A DNA stretch of 64,000 bases. Origin: Cellulomonas gilvus ATCC 13127. GTDB taxonomy: Bacteria > Actinomycetota > Actinomycetes > Actinomycetales > Cellulomonadaceae. The notes below the pieces were generated by a model that was not told the DNA's origin, made no database searches, and was given only the letters and a program-made list of their open reading frames with translations. The position numbers and the translations under genes are program-made. Location of the stretch: assembly GCF_000218545.1 (NCBI RefSeq), contig NC_015671.1:496001-560000 (forward strand). Direction: 5' to 3'. Positions 2,689 through 32,001 of this stretch are shown in pieces; position 1 is the first letter of the stretch, and every line of letters begins with the position of its first letter.

Positions 2689-2717
2689 CTCACGAACCCC
2701 CGCCGCCCTCCGATGGG
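2689..2717 (+). promoter_or_regulatory. sigma-28-type promoter for the flgB operon
   Basis: CTCA at 2689-2692, 17-base spacer, CCGATGGG at 2710-2717. The arrangement resembles the FliA consensus (TAAA-N15-GCCGATAA) and recurs with the same spacing in front of five other transcription units here. It is 74 bases before the preferred flgB start. Confidence 0.7.
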
Positions 2718-2791
2718 GCGGCAGAGCACGGACCGCTCGAACCGCAGGCCATGGATGGCCGCCCCCGCCACCCGTGGATGAGGCGAACCCT

Positions 2792-3139
2792 GTGGGCCTT
2801 CTCAACTCCGTGAGCTATGTCGCGGTCAACTCCGCACTCGACTCACTCGCCCTGCGTCAGCGTGCCATCGCCGACAACGTCGCGAACCTCCAGACCCCCG
2901 GCTACCGGGCGCGCGTCGTGGAGTTCGAGGCCGAGCTCTCGCGCGCCGTCGGCCAGGGGTCGGGTGCCGCCGACGCGACGATCCGACGCTCGTCGGCCGC
3001 GACGCAGCTGAACGGCAACAACGTCAACCTCGACGAGCAGACGCTGCTCAACGTCGAGACGAACCTGCGCTACCAGCTCGCGACGCAGGCGGCCTCCGGC
3101 CAGTTCAGCTCCGTGCGCGCCGCGATGAGGACCAGCTGA
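2792..3139 (+). CDS. flgB: flagellar proximal rod protein FlgB
   Basis: About 115 residues. FlgB is part of the rod that crosses the peptidoglycan between MS ring and hook. The N-terminal SVSYVAVNSALDSLALRQRAIADNVANLQTPG contains the rod-family signature (ANN/ADN-[IV]AN-x-x-TPGY), and the C-terminal helix LNVETNLRYQLATQ is typical. GTG 2792 is preferred to GTG 2774 because it gives a family-like N-terminus (GLLNSVSYVAV) and has GAGG nearby; the longer form adds six residues. The stop overlaps the flgC ATG by one base. Confidence 0.93.
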   Translation: MGLLNSVSYVAVNSALDSLALRQRAIADNVANLQTPGYRARVVEFEAELSRAVGQGSGAADATIRRSSAATQLNGNNVNLDEQTLLNVETNLRYQLATQAASGQFSSVRAAMRTS

Positions 3140-3537
3140 TGTCCATCTTCGGCGCCATCGGCATCGCGCAGTCCGGCCTCACCGTGCACCGCACGTGGCT
3201 CGACGCCGTCTCGGACAACCTGGCCAACATCTCGACGGTGCGCCCGACGTCCGAGGCCGCGTTCCAGGCCCGGTACGTCGTCGCGCAGGAGACCCCGGGT
3301 CCCGAGGGCGGCGCGCAGGTCGTGGGCGCGGCGTTCGGCTCGGCGGAGGGGCGGATGGTCTACGAGCCCGCCAACCCGCTGGCCGACGAGAACGGCTACG
3401 TGCGCTACCCCGACATCGACATGTCGAGCCAGATGACGCAGCTCATCATGGCCCAGCGCGGCTACCAGGCGAACGCCGCGGTGGTCGACCGGGCCAAGGA
3501 GACCTACACCGCAGCCCTCCAGATCGGACGCTCCTGA
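3139..3537 (+). CDS. flgC: flagellar proximal rod protein FlgC
   Basis: 132 residues. Rod component assembled with FlgB and FliE. N-terminal FGAIGIAQSGLTVHRTWLDAVSDNLANI is the rod-protein signature; the C-terminal MSSQMTQLIMAQRGYQANAAVVDRAKE is the conserved flagellar axial helix. Start and stop overlap neighbours by one base (ATGA-type junctions), indicating translational coupling from flgB through fliF. Confidence 0.95.
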   Translation: MSIFGAIGIAQSGLTVHRTWLDAVSDNLANISTVRPTSEAAFQARYVVAQETPGPEGGAQVVGAAFGSAEGRMVYEPANPLADENGYVRYPDIDMSSQMTQLIMAQRGYQANAAVVDRAKETYTAALQIGRS

Positions 3538-3866
3538 TGCCCACCCCCATCGCGCCCGTGGGCGCCGTCGCCTCCGCGGTCACCGCGGTCGCCCCCACCG
3601 CCGCGGTCACCGGCCCGGGTGCGACGCAGGCCGCCTCGGCCGTGTCCGGCGCCCAGTTCTCCTCGGTGCTCGGCTCGATCGACTCGCTGCAGGCGCTGCA
3701 GTCGCGCTCGTCGGACCTCGCGGTCCAGGCCGTGACCGGTGACCTCGAGAACGTGCACGACTACACGATCGCCGCCGCCGAGTCCTCGCTCGCGCTCGAG
3801 CTCACCGCAGCCGTGCGCAACAAGGCCGTCGACGCGTTCACCGAGATCATGAGGATGCAGGCCTGA
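3537..3866 (+). CDS. fliE: flagellar hook-basal body protein FliE
   Basis: 109 residues from ATG 3537 (overlapping the flgC stop) to 3866. FliE joins the MS ring (FliF) to the rod. The C-terminal half carries the family pattern: SRSSDLAVQAVTGDLENVHDYTIAAAESSLALELTAAVRNKAVDAFTEIMRM. The N-terminal 40 residues are an Ala/Pro/Val-rich low-complexity segment. A much longer in-frame extension upstream is only the flgC shadow and is rejected. Confidence 0.93.
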   Translation: MPTPIAPVGAVASAVTAVAPTAAVTGPGATQAASAVSGAQFSSVLGSIDSLQALQSRSSDLAVQAVTGDLENVHDYTIAAAESSLALELTAAVRNKAVDAFTEIMRMQA

Positions 3867-5464
3867 TGCCCGCGCAGATGCAGGCCGCCCTGGGCAAGCT
3901 CACGGGCGCCGTCAAGGAGTTCTCCACCGCGCAGCGCACGCTCGCGATCATCGGCGTCGCGGTGCTGGTGCTGGGTGGCGTCGCGCTCTCGTCGTGGCTG
4001 TCGCGCCCCGCGCTCAGCCCGCTGTTCACCAGCCTGTCCGGCGCGGACGCCGCAGCGGTGGTCGAGGAGCTCGACGCACAGGGTGTGCAGTACGAGCTCG
4101 CCGACGGCGGCTCGACCGTCATGGTCCCCGCGTCGCAGATCTACGCGCAGCGCATCAACCTGGCCGCGGCCGGCATCCCGGCGAACTCGGACGGCGCGGG
4201 CTACTCGCTGCTGGACGACATGCCGATGACGTCGAGCGAGTTCCAGCAGGAGAAGACGTACCAGCGCGCGCTCGAGGGCGAGCTCGCCCGGACCATCGGC
4301 GCGATGGACGGCGTCGAGTCCGCGACCGTGCGTCTGGCGATGCCGCAGGAGACCGTGTTCACCGAGACCGCGGGTGAGCCCACGGCGTCGGTGTTCGTCC
4401 GCACGCGCGCCGGCTCCACGCTCGGCGCCGACCAGGTGCAGGCGATCACGCACCTCGTCGCGGCCGGCATCCCGGAGATGGCACCCACCGACGTGGCCGT
4501 CGTCGACGCGTCCGGCCAGGTGCTGTCCGCGGTCGGCACGGGCACCACGGGCCTGTCGGGCGGCGAGGTCAGCGACTACGAGGAGCGCGTGCGCTCGTCG
4601 GTGCAGACGCTGCTGGACCGCGTGATCGGCCCCGGCCGGTCGGCCGTGACCGTGACCGCCGAGCTCGACTTCGACGAGAGCCAGCGCACCACGGAGACGT
4701 TCGACGCGACGAAGGACACCCCGCCGCTCGCGTCGTCGACGAAGACCGAGGAGTACACCGGCACCGACCAGACCGCCACGGGCGTGCTGGGTCCCGACGA
4801 GGACGTCGTCGGTCCCGACGGCACGGGTCAGGGCGGCGCCTACAAGTCGACCAGCGAGGACGTCACCAACGCGATCAACAAGACCACCGAGGTGGTCAAG
4901 GCGGCGCCGGGCGCGGTGCAGCGCCAGTCGATCGCCGTCGTCGTCGACTCCGAGGCCGCCGCGGGTCTGGACCTGACCGAGCTGCAGGCCACCGTGGCCG
5001 CCGCGGCCGGCGTGGACACCACGCGTGGCGACACGCTCGCGCTGCAGGCCGCCGCGTTCGACACCACGGCGGCGCAGGACGCGGCCGCCGCGCTCGCGGC
5101 CGCCGACGCCGCGGCCAAGGCCGACGCGCAGAACGCGCTCATCCGTCAGGCCGCGATCGGCGGCGTCGTGCTCATCGTGCTCATCGTCATCGGGATCCTC
5201 ATGGCGCGCCGGTCGCGCAAGTCGCGCCGCGAGGCGGTCGACCTGGGCGTGCTGCCCGTGCTCGACGGCCAGGGCGGTGCCACCGCACAGCTCGAGGGCC
5301 TGGACGTCGACGCGCTGCCGGTCCTGCCGCCCGCACCGCTGCCGACCACGCCCGACCCGCTGGCCATCAAGCGCGCCGAGATCTCCGCGCTGGCCGACGA
5401 GCAGCCCGAGGAGGTCGCGGACCTCCTGCGCTCGTGGCTGTCCACGCCGAGCGGTGCGCGCTGA
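3866..5464 (+). CDS. fliF: flagellar MS-ring protein FliF
   Basis: 532 residues. FliF oligomerises in the cytoplasmic membrane to form the MS ring on which rod, export gate and C ring assemble. Two membrane segments are visible: about residues 26-48 (TLAIIGVAVLVLGGVALSSW) and about 430-452 (AAIGGVVLIVLIVIGILMA). Between them lie the YscJ-like ring-building domains with QRALEGELARTIGAMDGVESATVRLAMP. The C-terminal cytoplasmic tail (RAEISALADEQPEEVADLLRSWL) is the FliG-binding motif. It overlaps fliE and fliG by one base each. Confidence 0.97.
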   Translation: MPAQMQAALGKLTGAVKEFSTAQRTLAIIGVAVLVLGGVALSSWLSRPALSPLFTSLSGADAAAVVEELDAQGVQYELADGGSTVMVPASQIYAQRINLAAAGIPANSDGAGYSLLDDMPMTSSEFQQEKTYQRALEGELARTIGAMDGVESATVRLAMPQETVFTETAGEPTASVFVRTRAGSTLGADQVQAITHLVAAGIPEMAPTDVAVVDASGQVLSAVGTGTTGLSGGEVSDYEERVRSSVQTLLDRVIGPGRSAVTVTAELDFDESQRTTETFDATKDTPPLASSTKTEEYTGTDQTATGVLGPDEDVVGPDGTGQGGAYKSTSEDVTNAINKTTEVVKAAPGAVQRQSIAVVVDSEAAAGLDLTELQATVAAAAGVDTTRGDTLALQAAAFDTTAAQDAAAALAAADAAAKADAQNALIRQAAIGGVVLIVLIVIGILMARRSRKSRREAVDLGVLPVLDGQGGATAQLEGLDVDALPVLPPAPLPTTPDPLAIKRAEISALADEQPEEVADLLRSWLSTPSGAR

Positions 5465-6468
5465 TGACCGTCATGCTGCCCGGGCCGCAGAAGGCCGCGA
5501 TGCTCCTGGTCCAGCTGGGCCGCGAGCGGGCCGCCAAGGTCATGGCGAGCCTGGACGTCACCGAGATCGAGGAGCTCACGGCGCAGATCCTGCGCCTCGA
5601 CCGCGTCGACCAGCAGCAGGCCGACGCCGTGCTCGAGGAGTTCTACGACGCGTCCGTGATCGGCCCCGGCCTGGGCGGCGGCATGGGCCTGGCCCAGCAG
5701 CTGCTCGAGGCGTCCCTGGGTGCCGAGGCGGCCGCGACCGTCATGGAGCGCCTGCAGATCCACCTCGCGGGGCAGCCGTTCGAGTTCCTGCAGCAGGCCG
5801 ATGCGCGTCAGGTGGTGTCGCTGCTGTCCGGCGAGCACCCGCAGGCGATCGCGCTCGTGCTCGCGCACCTGCGTCCCGACCACGCGTCGACGATCCTGGC
5901 CGGGCTCGAACCGGGCCTGCAGGGTGAGGTCGCGCACCGCATCGCGCTCATGGAGCGCGCGTCGCCCGACGTCGTGACCGTGGTCGCCGAGCAGCTGCAG
6001 CGCAAGGCCTCGGCCGTGCTCGCGCCGCGCGAGCTCGCCGCGGTCGGCGGCGTGCAGCCGCTCGTCGAGATCATCAACCGCGCCGACCCGACCACGGAGA
6101 AGGCGATCCTCGAGGGCCTGGCCTCGCGTGACGAGCAGCTCGCCGAGGAGGTCCGCAGCCGCATGTTCGTGTTCAACGACATCGTGCTGCTCGAGGACCG
6201 GGCGATGCAGATGGTGCTGCGCCAGGTCGAGACGGCCGAGCTGTCCGTCGCGCTCAAGGGCGTGTCCGACGAGGCGCGCGAGACCGTGCTGCGCAACCTG
6301 TCCGAGCGGGCCCGCGAGAACCTCCTCGAGGAGATCGACATGCTCGGCCCGGTCCGCCTCTCGCAGGTCGAGGAGGCGCGCGCCGGCATCGTCCAGCAGA
6401 TCCGCCGCCTCGAGGAGAGCGGCCAGATCGTCATCCGCCGCGAGGGGGAGGACGAGTACGTTGCCTGA
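5464..6468 (+). CDS. fliG: flagellar motor switch protein FliG
   Basis: 334 residues from ATG 5464, which overlaps the fliF stop (ATGA); an in-frame ATG 30 bases earlier would eat into fliF and is less likely. FliG forms the upper C ring, contacts MotA and switches rotation. Visible regions: N-terminal GPQKAAMLLVQLGRERAAKVM, middle domain with EHPQAIALVLAHLRPDHASTIL (EHPQTIA-type motif), and C-terminal MFVFNDIVLLEDRAMQMVLRQVE with the charged residues that touch the stator. Confidence 0.97.
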   Translation: MTVMLPGPQKAAMLLVQLGRERAAKVMASLDVTEIEELTAQILRLDRVDQQQADAVLEEFYDASVIGPGLGGGMGLAQQLLEASLGAEAAATVMERLQIHLAGQPFEFLQQADARQVVSLLSGEHPQAIALVLAHLRPDHASTILAGLEPGLQGEVAHRIALMERASPDVVTVVAEQLQRKASAVLAPRELAAVGGVQPLVEIINRADPTTEKAILEGLASRDEQLAEEVRSRMFVFNDIVLLEDRAMQMVLRQVETAELSVALKGVSDEARETVLRNLSERARENLLEEIDMLGPVRLSQVEEARAGIVQQIRRLEESGQIVIRREGEDEYVA

Positions 6469-7066
6469 CTCCGCCACGCTGGTGCTGCGCCCGCTCACGA
6501 CGAGCGCGGCCGACGAGCTCGTCCAGGACTCCGCACGTGCGGAGGGCTTCGCCGCGGGCTACGCGGCCGGTGCCCGCCGCGCGGCGGCCGACGCCGCGGT
6601 CGCGGCCGAGCGGACCGCCCGGCAGGCAGCCGCGGACGCCGAGGCGCGCCGCCGGTCGCTCGACGAGGCGCTCGGCCTGCTCGCGCGGGCCGCCGACGCC
6701 GTGCGCGCGCTGACCGCACCCGTGCTGGCCGAGGCGTCCGCCGCGGTGCACGCCGCGGGGCTGGACCTCGCGCACGCCGTGCTGGGTGCCGAGCTCTCCG
6801 ACGCGCCGCACGCGGCACGTGCCGCGCTCGCACGCGTGCTCGCCACCGAGCCCGGCCCGGGGCCCGTGACCGTGCGCCTGCACCCCGCCGACGCGGCGCT
6901 GCTCGCGGACGTGCAGGTGCCCGACGGCTTCGTCGTCGAGGCGGACCCGTCGCTGCACCGCGGCGACGCGCTCGCGGTGCACGCCGACGGTCAGATCGAC
7001 GCCCGCATCGACGCCGCGCTCGACCGCGCGCGCGCCGCGCTCGCGCAGCACGTGGACCGGCCATGA
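6461..7066 (+). CDS. fliH: flagellar assembly protein FliH
   Basis: About 201 residues starting at TTG 6461, which overlaps the end of fliG by 8 bases and follows a GGGGGAGG site. FliH regulates the export ATPase FliI and tethers it to the export gate and C ring. Features: short N-terminal segment, a glycine/alanine-rich helix with GFAAGYAAGARRAAADAA (the GxxxG-type FliH repeat zone), and a C-terminal domain with PGPVTVRLHPADAALL typical of the FliH/YscL family. Position between fliG and fliI fixes the identity; sequence conservation of this family is low. Confidence 0.85.
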   Translation: MPDSATLVLRPLTTSAADELVQDSARAEGFAAGYAAGARRAAADAAVAAERTARQAAADAEARRRSLDEALGLLARAADAVRALTAPVLAEASAAVHAAGLDLAHAVLGAELSDAPHAARAALARVLATEPGPGPVTVRLHPADAALLADVQVPDGFVVEADPSLHRGDALAVHADGQIDARIDAALDRARAALAQHVDRP

Positions 7067-8376
7067 GCACGCTCACCCTGCCCCGCCCCGTCCTGGACGC
7101 GGCCCGGCCGCAGCCGGTGGGCGTCCTGCGCGCGGTCGTCGGGCTCACGCTCGAGGTCGTCGGGACGCGGTCCGCGGTCGGCGACCTGGTGCGCGTGGGT
7201 GACGGCCCGGACGCCGTGCTCGCGGAGGTCGTGGCCGCCACCGGCGGGTCCGCGCACTGCATGCCCCTGGGCGCGACGCGCGGCCTGGGTGCGGGCCTGC
7301 CGGTCCGCCCCGCGGGCGCGCTGCGCGTCCCCGTGGGCTCGGGCCTGCTCGGCCGCGTGCTCGACGGCTTGGGCCGCCCGATCGACGGCAAGGGCCCGCT
7401 GCGCGCGCAGGCGTGGGTGCCGGTCGACGGGACCGCACCGCACCCTCTCGAGCGAGCGCGCGTCGACACGCCGCTCGACCTGGGTGTGCGCGTGCTGGAC
7501 ACGCTCGTGACGGCCGGGCGCGGTCAGCGCCTCGGCCTGTTCGCCGGCTCGGGCGTCGGCAAGTCGAGCCTGCTGTCGATGATCGCGCGCGGCACGGAGG
7601 CCGAGGTCTCCGTCATCGCGCTCGTCGGCGAGCGCGGGCGTGAGGTGCGCGAGTTCCTCGAGGACGACCTCGGCCCCGAGGGGCTCGCCCGGTCCGTCGT
7701 CGTGATCGCGACGTCCGACGAGCCCCCGCTCGTGCGGCTGCGGTCGGCGTTCGTCGCGACGCGCATCGCCGAGCACCTGCGTGACGAGGGCCGCCACGCG
7801 GTCCTGATGATGGACTCCCTCACGCGTGTCGCGATGGCCCAGCGCGAGATCGGCCTGTCCGTGGGTGAGCCGCCCGCGACGCGCGGCTACCCGCCGAGCA
7901 CGTTCGCGCTGCTCGCGCAGCTCCTGGAGCGTGCGGGCACCGGCCCGCGCGGCTCGGTCACGGGTCTGTACACCGTGCTCGTGGACGGCGACGACCACAA
8001 CGAGCCGATCGCCGACGCGGCACGTTCGATCCTCGACGGGCACGTGGTCCTCGACCGCCGGCTCGCCGTGGCCGGGCACTTCCCGAGCGTCGACGCGCTC
8101 GGCTCGATCAGCCGGGTCGCGTCGCGCGTCACGACGGGTGAGCAGCGGGCCGCGGCCCAGCGGCTGCGCTCGGTCATGGCGGCCCGGCGCGCCGCGCAGG
8201 ACCTGCTCGACGTCGGCGCGTACGTGGCCGGCACCAACCCCCTGGTCGACGCGGCCGTCACGCACGGCGCGCAGATCGACGCCTTCCTGCAGCAGGGCAT
8301 GGACGAGTCCGCGCCCGCCGCTCAGTCCTGGGAGCGCCTCGGCGCCCTCGTGCACACCCTGGGAGAGCTGCCATGA
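7063..8376 (+). CDS. fliI: flagellum-specific ATPase FliI
   Basis: 437 residues. Hexameric cytoplasmic ATPase, F1-beta-like, that helps unload and feed substrates into the type III export gate. Walker A (FAGSGVGKSSLL) is near residues 159-170, Walker B (HAVLMMDSLTRVAMAQREI) near 246-264, followed by the GEPPATRGYPPSTFALL stretch diagnostic for FliI/type III ATPases. ATG 7063 overlaps the fliH stop; fliJ overlaps its end. Confidence 0.97.
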   Translation: MSTLTLPRPVLDAARPQPVGVLRAVVGLTLEVVGTRSAVGDLVRVGDGPDAVLAEVVAATGGSAHCMPLGATRGLGAGLPVRPAGALRVPVGSGLLGRVLDGLGRPIDGKGPLRAQAWVPVDGTAPHPLERARVDTPLDLGVRVLDTLVTAGRGQRLGLFAGSGVGKSSLLSMIARGTEAEVSVIALVGERGREVREFLEDDLGPEGLARSVVVIATSDEPPLVRLRSAFVATRIAEHLRDEGRHAVLMMDSLTRVAMAQREIGLSVGEPPATRGYPPSTFALLAQLLERAGTGPRGSVTGLYTVLVDGDDHNEPIADAARSILDGHVVLDRRLAVAGHFPSVDALGSISRVASRVTTGEQRAAAQRLRSVMAARRAAQDLLDVGAYVAGTNPLVDAAVTHGAQIDAFLQQGMDESAPAAQSWERLGALVHTLGELP

Positions 8377-8819
8377 CCCGACCCTTCCCACTCAGCGGTC
8401 TGCTGCGTGTGCGCGCCCGTGCCGAGGAGCGCGCGGCCGTGGAGCTCGCGGCCTCGCGCCGCGACGCGGACCGTGTCCGTCTGCGCCAGCAGGCGACGCG
8501 TGAGGCGCTCGCGGGCTCCGAGCTGCCCTCGGGCCGCGACGAGCTCGCGTGGATGGCCGCCGTGTCCAGCCGCTCGACGCTCGCGGTGCTGCTGCAGGAG
8601 GCCGAGCGTGCGGTCGAGGAGGCCGAACGTGACGTCGCCCAGCAGTCCGCGCGCTGGTCGCTGGCCCGCCGCGACGTCCGCGCGATCGACCGTCTGGCCG
8701 AGCGCCACGACGCGACCGAGCGTGCGTCCGAGGCCCGCGCCGAGCAGAACGTGCTCGACGAGGTCGCGGCCCGCATGACGGGCCGCACCGTCGGCGGCGC
8801 GCAGGAGGCCGGCGCATGA
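8373..8819 (+). CDS. fliJ: flagellar export protein FliJ
   Basis: 148 residues, almost entirely charged coiled coil (ERAAVELAASRRDADRVRLRQQ and similar). FliJ is the central stalk of the FliI hexamer, analogous to the gamma subunit of F1, and recycles chaperones. Start PFPLSGLLRVRARAEERAA fits the family. Identification rests on size, coiled coil and location immediately after fliI with a four-base overlap. Confidence 0.85.
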   Translation: MTRPFPLSGLLRVRARAEERAAVELAASRRDADRVRLRQQATREALAGSELPSGRDELAWMAAVSSRSTLAVLLQEAERAVEEAERDVAQQSARWSLARRDVRAIDRLAERHDATERASEARAEQNVLDEVAARMTGRTVGGAQEAGA

Positions 8820-9691
8820 CCGGGCTCGCCGCCGTGCAGGCGCGCATGGCCGAGCTGCAGCAGCTCGTCGCACCGCCCGCCGCGACCTCGTCCGTGGGCG
8901 CGTCCGAGGTCGACTTCTCCGCCGCGCTGCAGCAGGCGTCCCAGGTGCTGGGCGCCACGCCCACGACTCCCGTGCCCACCACGGCGCCGATCCCGGCACG
9001 GCCCACCGAGGGCCCCACCACGAACATCGCGCCCGGCTCGGGCGTCTCCGGCCAGGACCTGGTCGAGGCGGCCAAGAAGTACATCGGCACGCCCTACGTG
9101 TGGGGCGGCGAGTCGCTGTCCGAGGGCGGGCTGGACTGCTCGGGCCTGGTGCTGCGCTCGCTCACCGACCTGGGCGCCGCGGACGGCGTGCCGCGCGTCG
9201 CGCGGGACCAGCAGAGGCTCGGCACCAAGGTCGACTCGCTCGACGACGCGCTGCCCGGGGACCTGCTGGTGTTCGGCGGCGGCTCGCACATCGCGATCTA
9301 CGTCGGCGACGGCCAGATGATCGACGCGCCCAAGCCGGGCGGCCGGGTCAGCGTGCGCGACGTGTACGCCGAGCCGACGAACATCCGCCGGATCCTGCCG
9401 CAGGAGCAGGCCGCGGGCGCCGAGCTGGCGTCGTCGCCGGTCCTGACGGCCGGGCTCACGGGACTGTCGGGCCTGTCGGGTGCCGCGGGCACCGACGCGC
9501 TGGCGTCGCTGAACGGGCTGAACGGGCTGACCGCCGGCAGCGGGGGCGCTCCCGACCTGGGCGCGCTCGCCGCGCTCGCACAGACGTACCTGCCCTCGCT
9601 CACGGGTGAGCAGGGCTCGGCCGCGGCCTCGACGGCCGCGTCCCGCACGCAGTGGCAGATCCTGTCCGGCCTCCTGGGGGGTGCAGCATGA
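8816..9691 (+). CDS. NlpC/P60 (C40) peptidoglycan hydrolase of the flagellar operon
   Basis: 291 residues. The C40 peptidase domain spans about residues 80-195: catalytic Cys in GLDCSGLV (near residue 108), catalytic His in GGGSHIAIYVGDG, preceded by YIGTPYVWGGESL. Such enzymes cut D-gamma-glutamyl-diaminopimelate or related stem-peptide bonds. No Sec signal peptide is seen; the N-terminus is a short helix (MTGLAAVQARMAELQQLV) plus a Pro/Thr linker, so secretion through the flagellar export apparatus is plausible. It sits between fliJ and fliK, overlapping both, where it could open the wall for the rod, a job done by FlgJ in other bacteria. That role is inference. Confidence 0.85.
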   Translation: MTGLAAVQARMAELQQLVAPPAATSSVGASEVDFSAALQQASQVLGATPTTPVPTTAPIPARPTEGPTTNIAPGSGVSGQDLVEAAKKYIGTPYVWGGESLSEGGLDCSGLVLRSLTDLGAADGVPRVARDQQRLGTKVDSLDDALPGDLLVFGGGSHIAIYVGDGQMIDAPKPGGRVSVRDVYAEPTNIRRILPQEQAAGAELASSPVLTAGLTGLSGLSGAAGTDALASLNGLNGLTAGSGGAPDLGALAALAQTYLPSLTGEQGSAAASTAASRTQWQILSGLLGGAA

Positions 9692-11094: not shown

Positions 11095-11136
11095 CCCGGC
11101 CCACCCGCACCAGACCCACGCACTCCAGGAGCACGC

Positions 11137-11652: not shown

Positions 11653-11713
11653 CCCAGGCCACCCACCACCGACTGCCGCGCCACCCGGCCCGGCCCCCGC
11701 GAAGGGAACCACC

Positions 11714-16921: not shown

Positions 16922-16990
16922 AGACCTGAGGCCCACGGATGGGCCCACGCGGCACTCGCCGCATGCACGGACCACGGACGGGGGCTCGCC

Positions 16991-18947: not shown

Positions 18948-18951
18948 CGAC

Positions 18952-21323: not shown

Positions 21324-21326
21324 CCG

Positions 21327-22636: not shown

Positions 22637-22908
22637 TGGACACCAACGCGGTCCTCGACGTGGCGTTCGACGCCCTGGTCCTCGCGGCCAAGCTGTCCGC
22701 ACCCGTGCTGGTCAGCGCGCTCGTCGTCGGGTTCATCGTCTCGCTCGTGCAGTCGGTGACGCAGATCCAGGAGATCACGCTCAGCTTCGTGCCCAAGGCG
22801 CTCGCCGCCGGGATCGCGCTGCTCGTGTCCGGGCACTGGATGATCTCCGAGACCGTCGCGTTCACCCACGACATGTTCGAGCGCATCCCGTCGCTCGTCG
22901 GGGGCTGA
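22636..22908 (+). CDS. fliQ: flagellar export gate protein FliQ
   Basis: 90 residues, two membrane helices (about 15-37 and 53-73). SAPVLVSALVVGFIVSLVQSVTQIQEITLSFVPK is the FliQ/SpaQ signature. It forms part of the export gate with FliP and FliR. Start overlaps the fliP stop by one base. Confidence 0.96.
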   Translation: MDTNAVLDVAFDALVLAAKLSAPVLVSALVVGFIVSLVQSVTQIQEITLSFVPKALAAGIALLVSGHWMISETVAFTHDMFERIPSLVGG

Positions 22909-22909
22909 C

Positions 22910-24858: not shown

Positions 24859-26915
24859 AGAACCGGTCCATCGCCCCCATGGCGGTCCCCGCCGGCGTCG
24901 TCGGCGTCGTGCTGCTGCTCGTCGTGCCGCTGCCCGCGGCCCTGCTCGACGTGCTGATCGTCGTCAACATCACCGGCTCGCTCGTGGTGCTGCTGACCAG
25001 CATGTACGTGCGCCGGCCGCTCGACTTCTCGGTGTTCCCGTCACTGATCCTGGTGCTCACGCTGTTCCGGCTGGGGCTCAACGTGGCCTCGACGCGCCTG
25101 GTGCTGCGCGACGGGTTCGCGGGTCAGGTGATCGACGCGTTCGGCCACTTCGTCGTCGGCGGCTCGCTCGTCATCGGCCTGGTGATCTTCCTGATCCTGG
25201 TGGTCATCCAGTTCGTCGTCATCACCAACGGTGCGGGGCGTGTGGCCGAGGTCGGTGCACGGTTCACGCTCGACGCGATGCCCGGCAAGCAGATGGCGAT
25301 CGACGCCGACCTGAACTCGGGCCTGATCGACGAGGACACCGCGCGCCAGCGGCGTGCCGACGTCGCGGCCGAGGCCGACTTCTACGGCGCGATGGACGGT
25401 GGTTCGAAGTTCGTCAAGGGCGACGCGATCGCGGGCATCGTCATCACGGTCATCAACCTCATCGGCGGGTTCGTCATCGGCATGGTCCAGATGGGCATGT
25501 CGCCGGCCGAGGCGCTCGAGCGGTTCAGCCTCCTGACCATCGGCGACGGCCTGGTCACGCAGATCCCGGCGCTGCTGCTCTCGGTGGCCACGGGCATCGT
25601 CGTGACGCGGTCCACCGCCGAGGGCGACATGGGCACCGCGGCCGCCAAGCAGCTGACGCAGTCGCGCACCGCGCTGATGATCGCGGGCGCCGGTGCGATC
25701 GTGCTCGCGCTCATCCCGGGCATGCCGAAGGTGCCGTTCATCCTGGTGGGTGCGGTGCTCATCGTCGCCTCGCAGCGCATCAAGGCGGCCGAGCGCAAGG
25801 CCGAGCAGGACGCCGCGGACGGCACCACCGCGACCGCGGTCGCGGCGCCCGGCCCCGACTCGCCCGAGCAGCTGATCGAGCAGATGCGCGTGCACGTGCT
25901 CGAGGTGCTGCTCGCGCCCGACCTCGTCTCGCTCGTGGGCGACGGGCCCGACGGCGACCTGCTGGGCCGCGTGCGCGCGCTGCGCCGCAAGGTCGCGATG
26001 GACCTGGGCATCGTCGTGCCGCCCGTGCGCACGCGCGACAGCGTGGACCTGCCGCCGTCCACGTACGCGGTGCGCGTCGCGGGTGTCGAGGTCGGCCGTG
26101 GCGAGGCGCCCGCGGGCCGCGTGCTCGCGCTGGGCGACGACCTCGCGGCGCTGCCCGGCACGCCCGTGCTCGAGCCCGTGTTCGGCCTGGCCGGCAAGTG
26201 GGTGCCCGCCGAGCTGCGGCACGCCGCGGAGATGTCCGGCGCGACCGTGGTGGACCGCGTCTCGGTGCTCATCACGCACCTGGGTGCGCTCGTCACGCAG
26301 AACGCCGCGCGGCTCATGACGCGTGAGGACGTGCGCGTGCTGACCGACGGCGTCAAGCGCGTCAACCCGTCCGTGGTGGAGGAGCTCGTGCCCGGGCTGC
26401 TCAGCCTGGGGGAGGTGCAGCGCGTGCTGCAGGGCCTCCTGGCCGAGGAGGTGCCGATCCGGGACCTGGGCCGCATCTATGAGGCGCTCGCGCTGCGCGC
26501 GCGCACCAGCACGGATCCCGAGGGCCTCGTCGAGGCCGCGCGGACCGCGCTCGGGCCCGCGCTCGCGGCGCCGCACGTGCAGGAGGGTGTGCTGCGCGTC
26601 CTGACGCTGGACCCGCTGCTCGAGCAGTCGCTGCTCGAAGGTCTGCGGCCCGGCGAGGGCGGCACGCAGCTGGTGGTGGACCCGAACCGGGTGGAGTCCG
26701 TGCTGGGCCAGCTGCGCGACGCCGTCGCGCACGCCGAGGCGAGCGGCCGGTCCGTGGTGCTCGTGTGCGCACCCGCCGTGCGGCCCGCGCTGCGCCGCCT
26801 GGTCGCGCTCGGCCTCCCGCGCCTGCCCGTGCTGTCCTACGCCGAGGTGACCGGTGCCGGCGTCCAGGTCGAGACGACGGGGGTGGTGCGCGGTGGCCAG
26901 GCGATTGCTGCTTGA
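24855..26915 (+). CDS. flhA: flagellar export gate protein FlhA
   Basis: 686 residues from ATG 24,855 (preceded by GGGAGGA); the longer upstream frame overlaps flhB and is rejected. FlhA is the nonameric membrane component and chaperone-docking platform. Eight membrane helices occur within about 1-320; the conserved FHIPEP-type region is represented by VRRPLDFSVFPSLILVLTLFRLGLNVASTRLVL and RFTLDAMPGKQMAIDADLNSGLIDE. The cytoplasmic domain (about 330-680) ends in VLSYAEV, a typical FlhA terminus. Confidence 0.97.
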   Translation: MKNRSIAPMAVPAGVVGVVLLLVVPLPAALLDVLIVVNITGSLVVLLTSMYVRRPLDFSVFPSLILVLTLFRLGLNVASTRLVLRDGFAGQVIDAFGHFVVGGSLVIGLVIFLILVVIQFVVITNGAGRVAEVGARFTLDAMPGKQMAIDADLNSGLIDEDTARQRRADVAAEADFYGAMDGGSKFVKGDAIAGIVITVINLIGGFVIGMVQMGMSPAEALERFSLLTIGDGLVTQIPALLLSVATGIVVTRSTAEGDMGTAAAKQLTQSRTALMIAGAGAIVLALIPGMPKVPFILVGAVLIVASQRIKAAERKAEQDAADGTTATAVAAPGPDSPEQLIEQMRVHVLEVLLAPDLVSLVGDGPDGDLLGRVRALRRKVAMDLGIVVPPVRTRDSVDLPPSTYAVRVAGVEVGRGEAPAGRVLALGDDLAALPGTPVLEPVFGLAGKWVPAELRHAAEMSGATVVDRVSVLITHLGALVTQNAARLMTREDVRVLTDGVKRVNPSVVEELVPGLLSLGEVQRVLQGLLAEEVPIRDLGRIYEALALRARTSTDPEGLVEAARTALGPALAAPHVQEGVLRVLTLDPLLEQSLLEGLRPGEGGTQLVVDPNRVESVLGQLRDAVAHAEASGRSVVLVCAPAVRPALRRLVALGLPRLPVLSYAEVTGAGVQVETTGVVRGGQAIAA

Positions 26916-28026
26916 GGGCCACGACCTGGCCTCGCTGCTGGTCCAGGTCGCCGACGAGCTGGGCCCCGGCGCCAAGGTGATCCGCGCCGAGCGCGTGCGC
27001 ACGGGCGGCTTCGCGGGGTTCTTCCAGCGTGAGCACTTCGAGCTCACGGTCGACGTGCCCGACGCGCCGCCCGCGCGCCGACCGGTGCGTGCCGTGCCGC
27101 AGCCGCGGTCGGCGCCCGCAGCCGTGGGTCTGGACGCGCTGCTCGAGGCCGCCGACGCGGCCGACGGCCCCGCGACCCCGGGGCAGGGTGCGGCAGCCGC
27201 CGCACCTGTCGTCTCCACGGGCGGTGAGGCGTTCGCCGACGTGCTGGCCCAGGTCCGTGCGCTCGCGGCCGAGCGCGCGTCGGCCACGTCGGTGCCGAGC
27301 CCGGCGCCGACCGCGCCCGCCGACGCCATGCCCACGGTGGTGCTGCCGCCGCAGCCCGCGCCGCTGGCCGACGCGCTCACGCAGCGCCTCGGGGCGCTCG
27401 GGGTGCCGGATGTGCTGCTCGCGCGCGCACCGGGTTCGCTCGCGGCCCTGGTGGCCGAGCTGCCCACCGCGCAGCAGCCCCCGCGTGAGCCCGGCTCGGT
27501 GATCGTGGTCGCGGGTGCGGCCGGGGCCGTGGACACCACGGCCGCGCTGCTCGCGGACCGGCTGGGCCTGCCCACCGACGCGGTGGTCACCGCGGGTGCG
27601 CCGGGCTCGCGTCCGCCCGGCCCGCGCGGTCGCGGGTCGCGCCAGCAGCCCTCGGACGTCACGGCCGCGCACGCGTGGCGCGCGGCGTCCCGCAAGGCTC
27701 CGCACGCCTGGGTGGTCGCGCTCGCGGTCGGCGAGGGTGCCGACGAGCGCGCCGCGGGGTCCGAGCTGCGGCACGCGTTCGCCGCGGACCAGACCTGGGC
27801 CGTCGTCGACGCGCGGACACGCACGTCCGACGTCGCGGCGTGGCTCGCGTCCGTCGGCCCGTTCGACGCGCTCGCGGTGCGCGGCCTGTTCGACACCGCC
27901 GAGCCGGGTGCCGTGCTGGGCCTGGGCGTGCCGGTCGCGTGGTGCGACGGCATCCCCGCGACGCCCGCGGCGTGGGCCGCGGCGTTCGACCGCGCGCTCG
28001 ACGGCGCACCCGCCTGGGTCGGCTGA
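26893..28026 (+). CDS. FlhF-like protein with degenerate GTPase motifs
   Basis: About 377 residues from GTG 26,893 (overlapping flhA by 23 bases, GGGGGTGG upstream). The N-terminal ARRLLLEGHDLASLLVQVADELGPGAKVIRAERVRTGG matches the FlhF N-terminus, and the end (FDTAEPGAVLGLGVPVAWCDGIPATPAAW) aligns with the segment after G4 in SRP GTPases. The G1 P-loop, normally GxxGxGKTT, reads VAGAAGAVDTTAALL: the lysine is missing, and no DTAGR or TKLD motif is found. It therefore looks like an FlhF-derived pseudo-GTPase in the standard flhF position. FlhF normally governs flagellar placement and number at the membrane. No flhG follows. Confidence 0.7.
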   Translation: MARRLLLEGHDLASLLVQVADELGPGAKVIRAERVRTGGFAGFFQREHFELTVDVPDAPPARRPVRAVPQPRSAPAAVGLDALLEAADAADGPATPGQGAAAAAPVVSTGGEAFADVLAQVRALAAERASATSVPSPAPTAPADAMPTVVLPPQPAPLADALTQRLGALGVPDVLLARAPGSLAALVAELPTAQQPPREPGSVIVVAGAAGAVDTTAALLADRLGLPTDAVVTAGAPGSRPPGPRGRGSRQQPSDVTAAHAWRAASRKAPHAWVVALAVGEGADERAAGSELRHAFAADQTWAVVDARTRTSDVAAWLASVGPFDALAVRGLFDTAEPGAVLGLGVPVAWCDGIPATPAAWAAAFDRALDGAPAWVG

Positions 28027-28086: not shown

Positions 28087-28629
28087 TCAGGACTGCGTGC
28101 CGGTGAACGTGACGACGAGCCGGCCGGACCGGCCCGCGTTCGCCTGGCTCCAGTCCTCGGGCGCGAGCACGCGCACGGTCGCCGCGGCCCGTGCGCCGGG
28201 CTCGAGCAGCCCGGGCAGCCCGACGACCTCGACCAGCGGCTCCTGCGCGAACGGCTCGCCCACCACGGGCGCGAGCCACTCGATCCGTGAGACCACGGTC
28301 TGGCGGCCGTGCGCGTCGTTGGTGACGGCCACCTGGAACGTCCGGACGTCGCCGGGCACCAGGCCGTCGAGCAGCGCGGCGGGGACGGCGACCTGGTCGC
28401 CCTGCACGGCGTGCGCGCCCTCGGGCGCGTCCAGCAGCTCGAGGCTCAGGCCGGTCGCGTCGTCGCGGCCGAACCACGTCCGGGGCAGGTCGCCGTACGC
28501 GGCCGCGGCCTGCACGCCGGCCATGCCCAGACCCAGCGCGGCACCCGTGGCCAGTGCGGCGACGGTCGCGGGGCGCAGGCGCGCACGGGTGCCACGCGCG
28601 ACGCTCGTCGTGCGTCCGTGCAGGACCAT
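28087..28629 (-). CDS. secreted SipW-tag / TasA-camelysin-like protein
   Basis: 180 residues. An Arg-rich start is followed by ATVAALATGAALGLGMAGVQAAAAYGD, closely resembling the SipW-cognate class of signal peptides used by TasA/CalY fibre proteins in Gram-positive bacteria. The mature part is beta-rich with the typical LVPGDVRTFQVAVTNDAHG stretch (a 'TVTN' Ig-like pattern) and no cysteine. Assignment to TasA/CalY is by pattern only. A ribosome site (GGAGAG) precedes the ATG. Most notably it has its own sigma-28-type promoter at 28,680-28,708, so it is probably made with the flagella. Function is unknown; an adhesive or matrix fibre is the first guess. Confidence 0.65.
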   Translation of the reverse strand: MVLHGRTTSVARGTRARLRPATVAALATGAALGLGMAGVQAAAAYGDLPRTWFGRDDATGLSLELLDAPEGAHAVQGDQVAVPAALLDGLVPGDVRTFQVAVTNDAHGRQTVVSRIEWLAPVVGEPFAQEPLVEVVGLPGLLEPGARAAATVRVLAPEDWSQANAGRSGRLVVTFTGTQS

Positions 28630-28679: not shown

Positions 28680-28708
28680 CCCATCGGCGGCCGGGGGCCG
28701 GGTGTGAG
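28680..28708 (-). promoter_or_regulatory. sigma-28-type promoter for the secreted TasA-like gene
   Basis: On the minus strand CTCA (28,708-28,705), 17-base spacer, CCGATGGG (28,687-28,680), preceded by G. Identical layout to the flagellar promoters. It is 50 bases upstream of the gene start. Confidence 0.68.
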
Positions 28709-28789: not shown

Positions 28790-29059
28790 ATGCTGGTCCT
28801 CACGCGCCGCGCAGGCGAGAGCGTCGTGATCGGCGACGGCATCGTCGTCACCATCATCGACGTGCGCGGCGACGGCGTGCGGATCGGCATCGACGCACCC
28901 CGGTCGGTGCGCGTGCACCGCGCCGAGGTGCTCGCGGCGGTCGAGACGGCCAACGCGCAGGCCACGGTGCCCGACGAGGACGCGCAGGCGACGGTCGACG
29001 CGCTGCGGGCGATCCGCCCCCCGGCCGACCGGACCGCCCCGGAGGCACCCTCCGCCTGA
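28790..29059 (+). CDS. csrA: carbon storage / flagellar translational regulator CsrA
   Basis: 89 residues; the CsrA core occupies the first 50 or so (MLVLTRRAGESVVIGDGIVVTIIDVRGDGVRIGIDAP, then RSVRVHRAEVL). CsrA dimers bind GGA motifs in leader RNAs; in Gram-positive flagellar systems CsrA represses flagellin translation and is antagonised by FliW. The C-terminal extension of about 30 residues (QATVDALRAIRPPADR) is longer than in E. coli. It is divergent from the TasA-like gene and lies upstream of cheA. fliW is not in the window. The ATG has no good ribosome site and may be leaderless. Confidence 0.95.
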   Translation: MLVLTRRAGESVVIGDGIVVTIIDVRGDGVRIGIDAPRSVRVHRAEVLAAVETANAQATVPDEDAQATVDALRAIRPPADRTAPEAPSA

Positions 29060-29078: not shown

Positions 29079-29107
29079 CTCAACTCGACGGCCCCCGCGC
29101 CGATGAG
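29079..29107 (+). promoter_or_regulatory. sigma-28-type promoter for cheA-cheW
   Basis: CTCA at 29,079-29,082, 17-base spacer, CCGATGAG at 29,100-29,107 preceded by G. Thirty-nine bases before the cheA ATG. Confidence 0.7.
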
Positions 29108-29146: not shown

Positions 29147-31504
29147 ATGGACGAGATCGACGAGATCGTCCGCGAGTTCCTGGTCGAGAGTCACGAGAAC
29201 CTCGACCAGCTCGACAGCGACCTGGTCGCGCTCGAGGAGACTCCGGACTCGCGGGCGCTGCTGAGCAGCGTGTTCCGCACGATCCACACCATCAAGGGAA
29301 CCAGCGGGTTCCTCGCGTTCTCGCGCCTCGAGCGCGTGGCGCACGTCGGCGAGAACCTGCTCGTCGACCTGCGTGACGGACGTCGGTCGATGGACCAGCC
29401 GACGACCGACGTGCTGCTGCTCATGGTCGACACCGTGCGCGAGCTGCTCGGTGCGATCGAGCGCACGGGTGGCGAGGGCGACGTCGACGTCGAGCCCGCC
29501 GTCGCGGCGCTCGTCCGCGTGCAGGCCGGAGAGCCGGCGGCCCCCGCCGCGCCCGAGGCCGCCGCACCCGCGGCGCCGCCCGCCGAGCCCGAGGTCCCCA
29601 CCGCACCCGAGGAGGCCGCCGCACCCGCGGAGGCCGTCGCGCCCGAGGAGGTCGCCGTGCCCGCCGAGGTCCCCGCCGAGCCCGCCGCACCTGCGGCGCA
29701 GCCCGTCGCCGAGGTGCCCGCGCCGGCTGCGCCCGCCGCACCCGCGGCCGTGCTGCCGTCGCAGCGCCCCGACCCGACCCCGCTGGACGAGACGGGCACG
29801 CTCCGCGGCGCCGCGGACTCCTCGATCCGCGTGGACGTCGAGCTGCTCGACCAGCTCATGCGCCAGGTCGGCGAGCTGGTGCTCGCGCGCAACCGGATCA
29901 GCCGGCTGGCCAACTCGGCGCAGGACGTGGACCTGAGCCGCGGTGCGCAGCAGCTCAACCTGATCGCCTCCGAGCTGCAGGAGGGCGTCATGCGCACGCG
30001 CATGCAGCCCATCGAGCACGTGTGGTCCAAGATGCCCCGCGTCGTGCGGGACCTGGCGGCCCTGTGCGGCCGTGAGGTCCGCCTCGAGATGGTCGGTGGC
30101 GACACCGAGCTCGACCGCAGCCTCCTGGAGGCCGTCAAGGACCCGCTGACGCACCTGGTGCGCAACGCGGTCGACCACGGCATCGAGCCCCCCGAGGCCC
30201 GTGTGGCCGCGGGCAAGCCCGCGCAGGGCCTGCTCGAGCTGCGTGCGTCGCACGCGGGCGGTCAGGTCGCGGTCGAGGTGCGCGACGACGGCCGGGGCAT
30301 CGACCCCGAGGTCGTCGGCGCCAAGGCGATCGCCAAGGGTCTGCGCACGGCCGAGCAGGTCGCGGCCATGAGCCCGAACGACCTGCTGCAGCTGCTGTTC
30401 CTGCCGGGCTTCTCGACCGCGGAGAAGGTCACCAACGTCTCGGGCCGCGGTGTCGGCATGGACGTGGTGCGCACGCGCATCGAGGCCATCGGCGGGACCG
30501 TCGACGTCGAGTCGACGATCGGCGCGGGCACCGTGTGGCGTCTGCGCATCCCCCTGACGCTCGCGATCATGCCGTCGCTGTCGGTCGAGTGCGCAGGTGA
30601 CCTGTACGCGCTGCCGCAGGTGCACGTCGTCGAGCTCGTCGCGCTGGACACGCAGCGCTCGGACTCGGGCGTCGAGTACGTGCACGCCGCGCCCGTCTAC
30701 CGGCTCCGCGGCGAGCTGCTGCCCCTGGTCTCCCTCGCGGGCGTCCTGGGGGTCGCGGCCGACGACGACCGTCCGGCCGTCATCGCGGTGGTCCAGGCCG
30801 ACCAGCACCGGTTCGGCATGCTGGTGGACCGCGTGCTCACCACGGAGGAGATCGTGGTGACGCCGCTCGCGGCGCGCCTCAAGGCGATCGGCATCTACTC
30901 GGGCGCCACGGTGCTCGGGGACGGCCGCGTCGCGCTCATCCTCGACGTGCAGGCGATCGCCCGCCGCGCCATCACGCGCGACAGCGAGCTCGCGGCCCGT
31001 GCCGCGGCCGCGGCGGAGTCCGCGACCGTGCGGGCCGAGGTCGAGCAGGTCCTGGTGGCCGGCATCGGCGGCAGCCGCCGCGTGGCGATGCCGCTCGCGT
31101 CCGTGGCGCGCCTCGAGCACGTCCGGGCCGAGCAGGTCGAGCTGGTCGGCGGCCGCGAGGTCGTGCAGTACCGCGGCACGATCCTGCCGCTGGTGCGCCT
31201 GGACCGGCTGCTGGGCACGTACGCCCGCGAGTCCGACGAGCTGCTGCTCGTGGTCTACACGCGCGGCTCGCGCTCGGTCGGGCTGGTCGTCGAGGAGATC
31301 GTCGACATCGTCGAGGACGAGGTCGGCAAGCACTCCTCGATCGACGACGCGGGCCTGACGGGCTCGACGGTCCTGGGCGACAAGGTCACCGAGCTGCTCG
31401 ACGTGCGCTCGGCGATCCTCGCGGCGGACCGCGACTTCTACACCGACCCCGTGCCGGCGGACGTGTTCGCCGGTCTCGACGAGCTCGTGGGAGCGACCCG
31501 ATGA
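29147..31504 (+). CDS. cheA: chemotaxis histidine kinase CheA with two CheW-like domains
   Basis: 785 residues. Autophosphorylating kinase of the receptor array. Hpt (P1) domain at about 1-105 with phospho-acceptor His47 in IHTIKGTSGFL; an Ala/Pro/Glu-rich linker (about 125-215) replaces a recognisable P2; dimerisation P3 at about 220-290; HATPase P4 at about 290-465 with HLVRNAVDHGIE, DDGRGID and GRGVGMDVV. Two regulatory CheW-like domains follow, about 470-615 (SLSVECAGDLYALPQVHVVELV) and 625-765 (RRVAMPLASVARLEHV ... RSVGLVVEEIVDIVED). A good GGGAGGG site precedes ATG. It overlaps cheW by four bases. Confidence 0.95.
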   Translation: MDEIDEIVREFLVESHENLDQLDSDLVALEETPDSRALLSSVFRTIHTIKGTSGFLAFSRLERVAHVGENLLVDLRDGRRSMDQPTTDVLLLMVDTVRELLGAIERTGGEGDVDVEPAVAALVRVQAGEPAAPAAPEAAAPAAPPAEPEVPTAPEEAAAPAEAVAPEEVAVPAEVPAEPAAPAAQPVAEVPAPAAPAAPAAVLPSQRPDPTPLDETGTLRGAADSSIRVDVELLDQLMRQVGELVLARNRISRLANSAQDVDLSRGAQQLNLIASELQEGVMRTRMQPIEHVWSKMPRVVRDLAALCGREVRLEMVGGDTELDRSLLEAVKDPLTHLVRNAVDHGIEPPEARVAAGKPAQGLLELRASHAGGQVAVEVRDDGRGIDPEVVGAKAIAKGLRTAEQVAAMSPNDLLQLLFLPGFSTAEKVTNVSGRGVGMDVVRTRIEAIGGTVDVESTIGAGTVWRLRIPLTLAIMPSLSVECAGDLYALPQVHVVELVALDTQRSDSGVEYVHAAPVYRLRGELLPLVSLAGVLGVAADDDRPAVIAVVQADQHRFGMLVDRVLTTEEIVVTPLAARLKAIGIYSGATVLGDGRVALILDVQAIARRAITRDSELAARAAAAAESATVRAEVEQVLVAGIGGSRRVAMPLASVARLEHVRAEQVELVGGREVVQYRGTILPLVRLDRLLGTYARESDELLLVVYTRGSRSVGLVVEEIVDIVEDEVGKHSSIDDAGLTGSTVLGDKVTELLDVRSAILAADRDFYTDPVPADVFAGLDELVGATR

Positions 31505-31917
31505 GCAGCTACGTGACGTTCACGGTGGAGGACGGCCTGTACGGCGTCGACGTCCAGCGCGTGCAGGAGGCGCTGCGTGCGCACGCCCGCACGCGCGTCC
31601 CGCTCGCGCCCGAGGGCGTCGCGGGCCTGGTCAACCTGCGCGGTCAGGTGGTCCTCACGGTGGACCTGCGCCCGCGCCTCGGGCTCGGCCCGGTCGGTGA
31701 CGACGTCCAGCAGATGATGGTCGTGGTCCAGGTCGGCGGCGAGACCGTCAGCATCCTCGTCGACGAGATCGGCGACGTCGTCGACGTCGCACCGGACCGC
31801 GTCGAGGCGCCGCCGGACACGCTCGACCCCGCGATCCGTCCGCTCATCAAGGCCGCCTGCACGCTCGACGACCGGCTGCTGCTGGTCCTCGACGTCGACG
31901 AGGCCGCGGCTGCCTGA
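31501..31917 (+). CDS. cheW: chemotaxis coupling protein CheW
   Basis: 138 residues. Couples receptors to CheA. Pattern YVTFTVEDGLYGVDVQRVQEAL, GVAGLVNLRGQVVLTVDLRPRLGL and VSILVDEIGDVVDV is canonical CheW. It overlaps cheA by four bases; an 8-bp hairpin then the next promoter follow. Confidence 0.95.
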   Translation: MSSYVTFTVEDGLYGVDVQRVQEALRAHARTRVPLAPEGVAGLVNLRGQVVLTVDLRPRLGLGPVGDDVQQMMVVVQVGGETVSILVDEIGDVVDVAPDRVEAPPDTLDPAIRPLIKAACTLDDRLLLVLDVDEAAAA

Positions 31918-31943
31918 TCCCCCTCAGGCCCGCACCTCACCCC

Positions 31944-31967
31944 CGATCCGCACGATCACGCGGATCG
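31944..31967 (+). terminator. hairpin after cheW
   Basis: CGATCCGC (31,944-31,951) pairs perfectly with GCGGATCG (31,960-31,967), 8-base loop, 26 bases after the cheW stop and just upstream of the next -35 box. Either a terminator for cheAW or an operator for the receptor promoter. Confidence 0.45.
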
Positions 31968-31972
31968 CACCC

Positions 31973-32001
31973 CTCACAGCCGTCCCCGGGTGACCGATCT
32001 G
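31973..32001 (+). promoter_or_regulatory. sigma-28-type promoter for the chemoreceptor operon
   Basis: CTCA at 31,973-31,976, 17-base spacer, CCGATCTG at 31,994-32,001. The -10 deviates after CCGAT, the weakest of the six boxes, but the spacing is the same. It lies 43 bases before the receptor ATG. Confidence 0.55.

Follow-up and report, generated by a model that had tools for sequence, protein, structure and literature searches.

A shared sigma-28-type box before flagellar and chemotaxis operons of Cellulomonas gilvus, and the cluster-encoded sigma factor that probably reads it

In Cellulomonas gilvus ATCC 13127, one sigma-28-type box, CTCA-N17-CCGAT, precedes flagellar and chemotaxis operons, and the reading that these output genes share one promoter is well supported. 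The stretch analyzed, referred to here as the window, comprises 64,000 nucleotides (C1:496001-560000) of a genome consisting of a single contig of 3,526,441 bases with 74% GC. As the original prediction had held, the box, with its nearly fixed spacer of 17 bases, lies before flgB, flbD-mot, fliM and the chemotaxis genes, and it proved to be conserved across genera. Judged from sequence, the box is likely to be read by a dedicated sigma factor that the flagellar cluster itself encodes; the decision would be taken at the gene of this factor, and any ordering would be left to CsrA and FliW.

The box in the window, the genome and the relatives

All six copies predicted in the window are exact and occur at the predicted positions and strands. 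On the plus strand, they are located before the flgB operon (2689-2717), flbD-motA-motB-fliL (16893-16921), fliM (19649-19677), cheA (29079-29107) and the chemotaxis receptor genes (31973-31998); on the minus strand, the box at 28683-28708 precedes the gene of a small exported-looking protein, called TasA-like in the original prediction. The predicted extension to CCGATGGG or CCGATGAG is present in five of the six: the flgB and flbD boxes read CTCA-N17-CCGATGGG, those of fliM and cheA read CTCA-N17-CCGATGAG, and the receptor site, CCGATCTG, is the exception. At fliM, an enriched G lies 35 bases after the box start, and the RNA would start at or next to GTG 19684, making the message near-leaderless in this genome.

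A whole-genome scan returned 28 exact matches versus 7 with a reversed-pattern control; our own gene predictions put 16 of them within coding sequence and 12 between genes. Eight belong to the flagellar cluster (genome 490455-527998); these are all intergenic, in sense and 10-78 bases 5' of a predicted start. Two of these lie outside the window, upstream of the HDOD-domain gene and of fliC, so that flagellin carries the same box as the rod, motor, export and chemotaxis units; a one-mismatch copy (TTCA) is also found 64 bases 5' of flgN. Outside the cluster, 4 of 20 exact boxes are intergenic: two are situated 39 and 47 bases 5' of methyl-accepting chemotaxis-receptor genes, one is 5' of a DUF5701 gene, and one has no downstream gene on its strand. 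The 16 matches inside genes would suit an origin of the boxes as chance or coding-composition matches in so GC-rich a genome, an explanation to which we assign practically no probability. Six copies stand in the window against 0.39 expected (standard deviation 0.58; 100 dinucleotide shuffles, largest value 2), and all 155 intergenic copies in the clusters described below are in sense. Chance origin was rejected on the shuffle statistics, the de novo rediscovery of the box and its intergenic sense bias.

A de novo dyad search (4-mer, gap of 10-22, 5-mer) covered 268 upstream regions from 26 clusters, that of C. gilvus included; two relatives of lower GC, G012 and G015, were examined later. CTCA-17-CCGAT ranked first, in 103 of the 268 regions versus 2 in equal random stretches, and each of the 15 top dyads was either the box or a shifted or overlapping version of it. 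The spacer was 17 in 103 regions and 16 in three. By gene, the exact box precedes cheA in 18/20 clusters, fliM in 19/26, flbD in 17/26, flgB in 15/26 and fliC in 13/26, and in these upstream regions it was found before neither the sigma gene (0/26) nor fliD (0/26) nor csrA (0/25). Many boxes of G012 and G015 read CTAA/CTTA-N17-CCGAT. The scan set beforehand, on whether boxes are as frequent inside genes as upstream of them, was decided by the relatives: in a set of 29 clusters or cluster pieces of the box type (that of C. gilvus among them; G003a, G012 and G015 left out), 155 copies are intergenic versus 16 coding, i.e., 21.6 versus 0.156 per 10 kb.

The analysis was extended to named loci, the best 80 of 123 relatives, which include Cellulomonas, Actinotalea, Sanguibacter, Georgenia, Timonella, Jonesia, Mobiluncus and others. 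Here the exact box was detected before flgB in 45/59 loci, fliC in 41/72, the HDOD gene in 24/61 and flgN in 22/79, and before the sigma gene in none (0/80) nor before fliD (0/64; 4/64 as CTTA/CTAA). With CTCA, CTTA and CTAA all counted, the spacer was 17 in 141 cases, 16 in six, and any other value in one or two.

Several observations weigh against this picture. The exact box is not universal, being found in the 26-cluster set before flgN in only 5/26 clusters (17/26 with one mismatch), the HDOD gene in 8/20 and the mcp receptor gene in 7/19. This makes the receptor box, the weakest of the six, one of the least conserved, and an exact CTCA-N16-CCGAT at 31923 lies 50 bases upstream of it. Boxes are scarce in the Mobiluncus and Jonesia loci, where they invariably take the CTTA/CTAA form and sometimes lie before fliD; one Mobiluncus locus shows none. 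In 20 loci of other families, the unbiased search did not rank the box among its leading dyads, and all it left was an excess of spacer 17, with CT[CTA]A-CCGA at this spacing in 17 of 213 regions and at any other in at most four. Finally, the gene starts to which distances are given come from our own gene predictor.

Two candidate sigma factors

The original prediction had assigned the box to FliA/WhiG. Its sigma-28 character holds: the consensus of FliA/SigD in enterics and Bacillus, TAAA-N15-GCCGATAA, aligns with (C)TCAN-N15-GCCGATGRG here. WhiG as the reader does not fare as well, as two FliA/WhiG-type sigma factors are encoded and the evidence favours the one in the cluster. The latter, a divergent FliA-family protein, is encoded on the plus strand between flgN and fliC at genome 494166-495029 (18166-19026 of the corresponding locus, L034), 1.0-1.8 kb before the window. 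It contains Pfam Sigma70_r2, r3 and r4. Among the solved structures most similar to it are chains named FliA (6pmi, 1rp3), and, with a match at 494196, it scores 157.5-158.2 bits against its best-matching NCBIfam model, TIGR02479, below the cut-off of 189.6; by these matches it is FliA-like and not a certified member of TIGR02479. Region 4 is followed by a partly conserved C-terminal tail of ~60 residues with the motif PDGVAERRRxxYFAxxAxR. WhiG, encoded at 2296784, away from the flagellar genes, and 37% identical to the cluster sigma, exceeds the cut-off with 267 bits, as no other protein of the genome does; a third match, at 1577504, reaches 113.6 bits.

Both factors were surveyed in 150 family genomes, with the cluster sigma called at 183 bits or more. 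Weaker hits with the same query, at 80-111 bits, were taken as WhiG, and G056 was added. In G056 (L125) the match is divided between two reading frames, which may reflect either a sequence error or a whiG gene in decay. TIGR02479 confirmed WhiG in G000, G041, G127, G012 and G056 and its absence from all 12 FlhA-positive genomes counted as lacking it. The cluster sigma, present in 69 genomes, tracks FlhA, present in 66, and the two coincide in 65, i.e., in 65/66 FlhA-positive versus 4/84 FlhA-negative genomes. FlhA occurs without it in G036 (89% complete), and it occurs without FlhA in G028, G089, G135 and G147. WhiG is absent from 12 of the 66 FlhA-positive genomes and present in 15 of the 84 others. 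Counts of CTCA-N17-CCGATGRG, compiled for all genomes except G036, averaged 6.30 in the 60 genomes with the box-type cluster sigma (0.55 for the reversed pattern), 0.44 in nine with an altered cluster sigma, and 0.75 (control 0.87) in 68 with neither factor.

The alternative that WhiG reads the flagellar box, the cluster sigma doing something else, draws on its standing as sole TIGR02479 match over the cut-off (267 versus 158 bits), on its presence in 54 of the 66 FlhA-positive genomes, and on a statement in the consulted portion of PMC8325347 that WhiG shares promoter specificity with flagellar sigma factors. However, four genomes without a WhiG match have the box: G018 exactly before flgB, flbD, fliM and cheA; G003 before flbD and fliM; G015 exactly before cheA and in the CTAA form before flgB, flbD and fliM; and the fragmented G028 (91% complete) before flgB. 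The first three are FlhA-positive and 99-100% complete. Conversely, in the 12 genomes where WhiG occurs without FlhA and without the cluster sigma, the box is barely in excess (1.75, control 1.08). With the box retained in flagellar genomes that lack it, WhiG was disfavoured as the reader, and we hold this alternative to be quite improbable.

Further evidence comes from a clade in which the cluster sigma itself has changed. Region 4 of a sigma factor contacts the -35 element. In G104, G073, G129, G137 and G095 (L110-L117, L120, L121), a helix of this region is altered to GHSTVSHAR from a form that is mostly TQSR[IV]SQLR, and in all five clusters no intergenic box is left. The sequence CCGA[CG]AG, first spotted by eye in the same sequences, occurs there in 15 of 25 upstream regions versus a background of 6%, recurring before flgN, fliC, flgB and flbD; the dyad search found no new common dyad in this clade. 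As the clade also lacks WhiG, it does not by itself separate the two sigma factors, which weakens it as an argument against WhiG. Because flagellar genomes without WhiG keep the box and the clade with the altered sigma has lost it, the cluster-encoded factor, rather than WhiG, is most likely the box reader, and we infer from the covariation that it transcribes from these sites.

Some points qualify this assignment. In the four WhiG-less genomes, the strict GRG pattern is matched on average only 2.75 times (control 0.75); G028 has flagellar genes but no FlhA was found in it; and in genomes with both factors, WhiG might be a second reader of the box. Beyond the family, 114 of 396 genomes drawn from the phylum have a sigma match at E ≤1e-30, with cluster-type and WhiG-type proteins mixed. 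The covariation of sigma factor and box across genera offers a natural series for the joint change of a sigma factor and its promoters.

The sigma gene and the tiers of the regulon

The original prediction had also proposed a single-tier regulon. The shared box agrees with this; a strictly single tier does not hold, as the sigma gene lacks the N17 box in both sets of relatives and has upstream elements of its own. These conserved elements and the missing box suggest one regulator tier above one output tier. The two strongest elements in an unbiased dyad search upstream of the sigma gene are GTGA-N6-TCAC, found in 57 of the 80 named loci (control 1), and a TCAA/CTCA...CCGA pair, found as TCAA-N17-CCGA in 41 and as CTCA-N18-CCGA in 37 (control 1 each). 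The former is part of a CRP-type palindrome, a perfect TGTGA-N6-TCACA at genome 493974-493989 (L034 17974-17989), exact in 47 of the 80 loci. One cyclic-nucleotide-binding domain was matched in the genome, in a CRP-type regulator, and the palindrome is a putative site for CRP binding. A GGAC-N4-GTCC-like operator near the sigma gene was seen in 11/80 versus 2/80.

The second element reads TTCAAG-N16-CCGAC in C. gilvus (L034 18129-18155) and takes a CTCAAG form in many relatives. In several genomes it ends ~9-10 bases 5' of the predicted sigma start, which suggests a leaderless message with its own promoter. A sigma cascade, in which WhiG stands above the cluster sigma and CTCAAG-N16-CCGA is the WhiG promoter of the sigma gene, would build on this element: besides its frequency, 23 of the 47 CTCAAG copies found lie at one distance, with most others off by multiples of three, and the element is absent from the WhiG-less G018, G003, G028 and G015. 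It is, however, also absent from G092, G096, G045 and G012, which have WhiG; the C. gilvus copy departs from the CTCAAG form; and CTCAAG-N16-CCGARM is abundant genome-wide in almost all genomes, those with WhiG not standing out by eye. This family-wide scan was set aside as uninformative owing to its high background, and a cascade appears possible but doubtful.

In enteric bacteria, rod and export genes lie one tier above sigma-28, which FlgM holds back. Here, unlike in enterics, the rod, export and motor operons carry the box (before flgB, flbD and fliM), and no FlgM-family protein (PF04316) was found over the cut-off in any of the 150 family genomes, with one weak match in G039 (E 0.007). 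A remark in the original prediction that an FlgM-type checkpoint could not separate early from late genes is thereby moot. In a two-tier arrangement, the early operons would depend mainly on unseen SigA or activator-dependent promoters, the box supplying a late boost, much as the Bacillus fla/che operon has dual promoters. The sequence scan leaves room for a second promoter, e.g., in the gap of ~180 bases 5' of flgB; yet the top dyads of the 268 regions gave nothing besides the box, in a search that did not include a separate scan for SigA promoters. We regard this arrangement as unlikely, with the reservation, again at the expense of the one-promoter reading, that early operons could have additional SigA promoters.

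Under the reading we prefer, the order of events would be as follows. The decision to build flagella would be taken at the sigma gene, with its CRP-type palindrome, its separate promoter-like element and no N17 box. The cluster sigma would then read CTCA-N17-(G)CCGATGRG and start most flagellar and chemotaxis operons together, an FlgM-type hold-back being absent from the scheme. The order of the products, if any, would be set post-transcriptionally by CsrA and FliW at the flagellin, motor and rod leaders. Flagella are a textbook case of genes switched on in assembly order, and this actinobacterial group appears to do without transcriptional ordering and the FlgM hold-back, yet with a full flagellar gene set.

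The closest known parallel is Actinoplanes missouriensis, in which Jang et al. (2016) reportedly mapped eleven starts with CTCA(N15-17)GCCGAA and proposed one sigma factor for all flagellar genes. Going by this consensus, C. gilvus resembles the one-sigma regulon of Actinoplanes in having a CTCA...GCCGA box before flagellar units, the sigma gene, fliD and csrA being without an exact box. It differs in that the spacer hardly varies in length and is followed by CCGATGRG, and in that the sigma gene lies in the flagellar cluster with a separate WhiG elsewhere; CRP-type and CsrA-type elements are also seen here. In the part of PMC8325347 consulted, Actinoplanes flagellar genes are directed by WhiG-like flagellar sigma factors. 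The WhiG-RsiG-c-di-GMP switch treated in the same portion of that source is similar in involving a WhiG-family sigma factor of an actinobacterium with a flagellar-type consensus, and different in that the box here follows another sigma factor. A 2023 survey of actinobacterial flagella lists FliA, FlgM and CsrA among its search queries in the section consulted (PMC10746217). A literature search, with most subscription journals outside its scope, yielded no work from these bacteria that addresses the cluster sigma, its CRP site or leaders of the CsrA type.

Leader hairpins and the flagellar genes

Control by CsrA and FliW may nonetheless keep early products apart from late ones at a post-transcriptional step. 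Pfam places csrA (28790-29059, plus strand, 1e-23) and fliW in the flagellar cluster, each in 33 of 36 cluster pieces. Hairpins with ANGGAN loops and perfect stems of at least four pairs, counted in clusters other than G003a, comprise 106 intergenic sense, 0 intergenic antisense, 43 coding sense and 10 coding antisense cases, and seven other loop cores gave 1 to 21 intergenic hairpins each. The strict hairpin occurs before fliC in 33/35 clusters, before flbD in 17/35 (27/35 with G-U pairs) and just after fliL in 20/35, and was not found at cheA (0/28; one with G-U pairs), flgN (0/35) or the HDOD gene (0/25). A looser pattern at flgB, with loops of at most seven bases around GGA, is present as GAGC...GCTC in 30/35 clusters and as GGCC...GGCC in 27/35.

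In C. gilvus, the flgB leader carries two GGA-loop hairpins on the plus strand, one at 2724-2738 with a GAGC/GCTC stem and a 7-base loop that fails the strict six-base test, and one at 2747-2760, GGCC-ATGGAT-GGCC, which mostly has 7-base loops in relatives. The flbD leader has GGCCC-ACGGAT-GGGCC at 16930-16945 (plus), whose core GCCCAYGGANGGGC has just two copies in the whole 3.5-Mb sequence, each of them in a flagellar leader with such a hairpin (reversed control 0). In the tail of the mot mRNA, after the fliL stop and upstream of the fliM box, lies GGCGCC-ATGGAG-GGCGCC (19513-19530, plus). The fliC leader combines an ANGGAN hairpin, a likely CsrA site at L034 19099-19112, with GGA at the ribosome site, and all 20 fliC leaders longer than 20 bases contain at least two GGA. 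ANGGAN hexaloops are a known CsrA/RsmE target and FliW antagonises CsrA, according to the consulted parts of PMC7652899 and PMC4894983, so that the conserved GGA-loop hairpins, including the four in the window, are putative CsrA sites. In other families, fliC leaders have an ANGGAN-type loop on different stems in 4/5 loci, compared with 2/3 for flgB and 0/3 for flbD; Rfam at gathering scores gave no match at the flagellar leaders.

Covariation is consistent with paired stems, with five distinct, fully paired stems at fliC (shuffles at most 0.95) and 14 stems, 0.952 paired, at flbD (shuffles at most 0.929). Against the role given to CsrA, these stems were chosen for pairing before testing, which favours such a result; the strict six-base-loop hairpin occurs at flgB in only 4/35 clusters; and plain GGA is unspecific, with two or more in 21/26 cheA leaders.

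Hairpins in the fliC, flbD-mot and flgB leaders suggest that order may be imposed on translation. A similar arrangement is the CsrA-FliW-flagellin checkpoint of B. subtilis and C. jejuni, matched here by csrA and fliW in the cluster and by the hairpin and GGA of the fliC leader. The present case differs in having hairpins also in the flbD and flgB leaders and after fliL, and in belonging to an actinobacterial one-sigma regulon. As given in the consulted parts of PMC4894983 and PMC7652899, several further flagellar mRNAs are bound by CsrA in C. jejuni, where the flagellin mRNA titrates the protein. More specifically, transcription might be a single step, with the cluster sigma starting every operon simultaneously, and the assembly order written in RNA: CsrA, titrated by FliW and flagellin, would time the translation of rod, motor and flagellin, the one or two hairpins after fliL would form a built-in CsrA sink, and the switch/export-gate operon, with its near-leaderless fliM, would escape control and be made first. 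This version is tentative, and we would sooner doubt than adopt it. In the broader scheme, cheA leaders, which have no strict hairpins, and near-leaderless fliM would likewise stand outside hairpin control. By their conservation, the leader hairpins direct attention to translation as the level where order is kept; the possibility that assembly control has moved there from transcription is the part most worth bench time.

The genes behind the boxes are arranged in runs. Before the window, Pfam identified flgN, flgK, flgL, fliW and the HDOD gene on the minus strand and the sigma gene on the plus strand; fliD is placed in the window. The first run, flgB-flgC-fliE-fliF-fliG-fliH-fliI-fliJ-NlpC/P60-fliK-flgD-flgE (2792-12892, plus), rests on gene models, with the flgB start at 2774 or 2792 and Pfam matches for flgB, fliE, fliF, fliH, fliJ, NlpC/P60, fliK, flgD and flgE. 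The genes that we take to be flgC, fliG, fliI, fliS, fliQ, fliR, flhB and fliC were named by position and recall. Pfam supports flbD, motA, motB and fliL (16991-19470, plus), and, in the run fliM-fliN-fliO-fliP-fliQ-fliR-flhB-flhA-flhF (19684-28026, plus), fliM, fliN, fliO and fliP; FlhA (FHIPEP) lies at genome 520906-522852, followed by a weak FlhF-like match below the cut-off. Pfam likewise identified cheA and cheW (29147-31917, plus) and a receptor, a binding protein, a second receptor, cheB, cheR and a response regulator (32045-38946, plus).

The exported-looking protein of 180 residues (28087-28629, minus) gave no hit to Pfam at E 0.001 or to NCBIfam, which makes TasA-like a weak label; its gene is present in two clusters, G000 and G121. 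Between flgE and flbD lie a helicase gene and a gene for a PAS-PAS-GAF-SpoIIE phosphatase (12971-15103), the latter annotated in no other cluster examined. Outside the flagellar region, the window contains a c-di-AMP riboswitch (Rfam RF00379) at 50289-50449.

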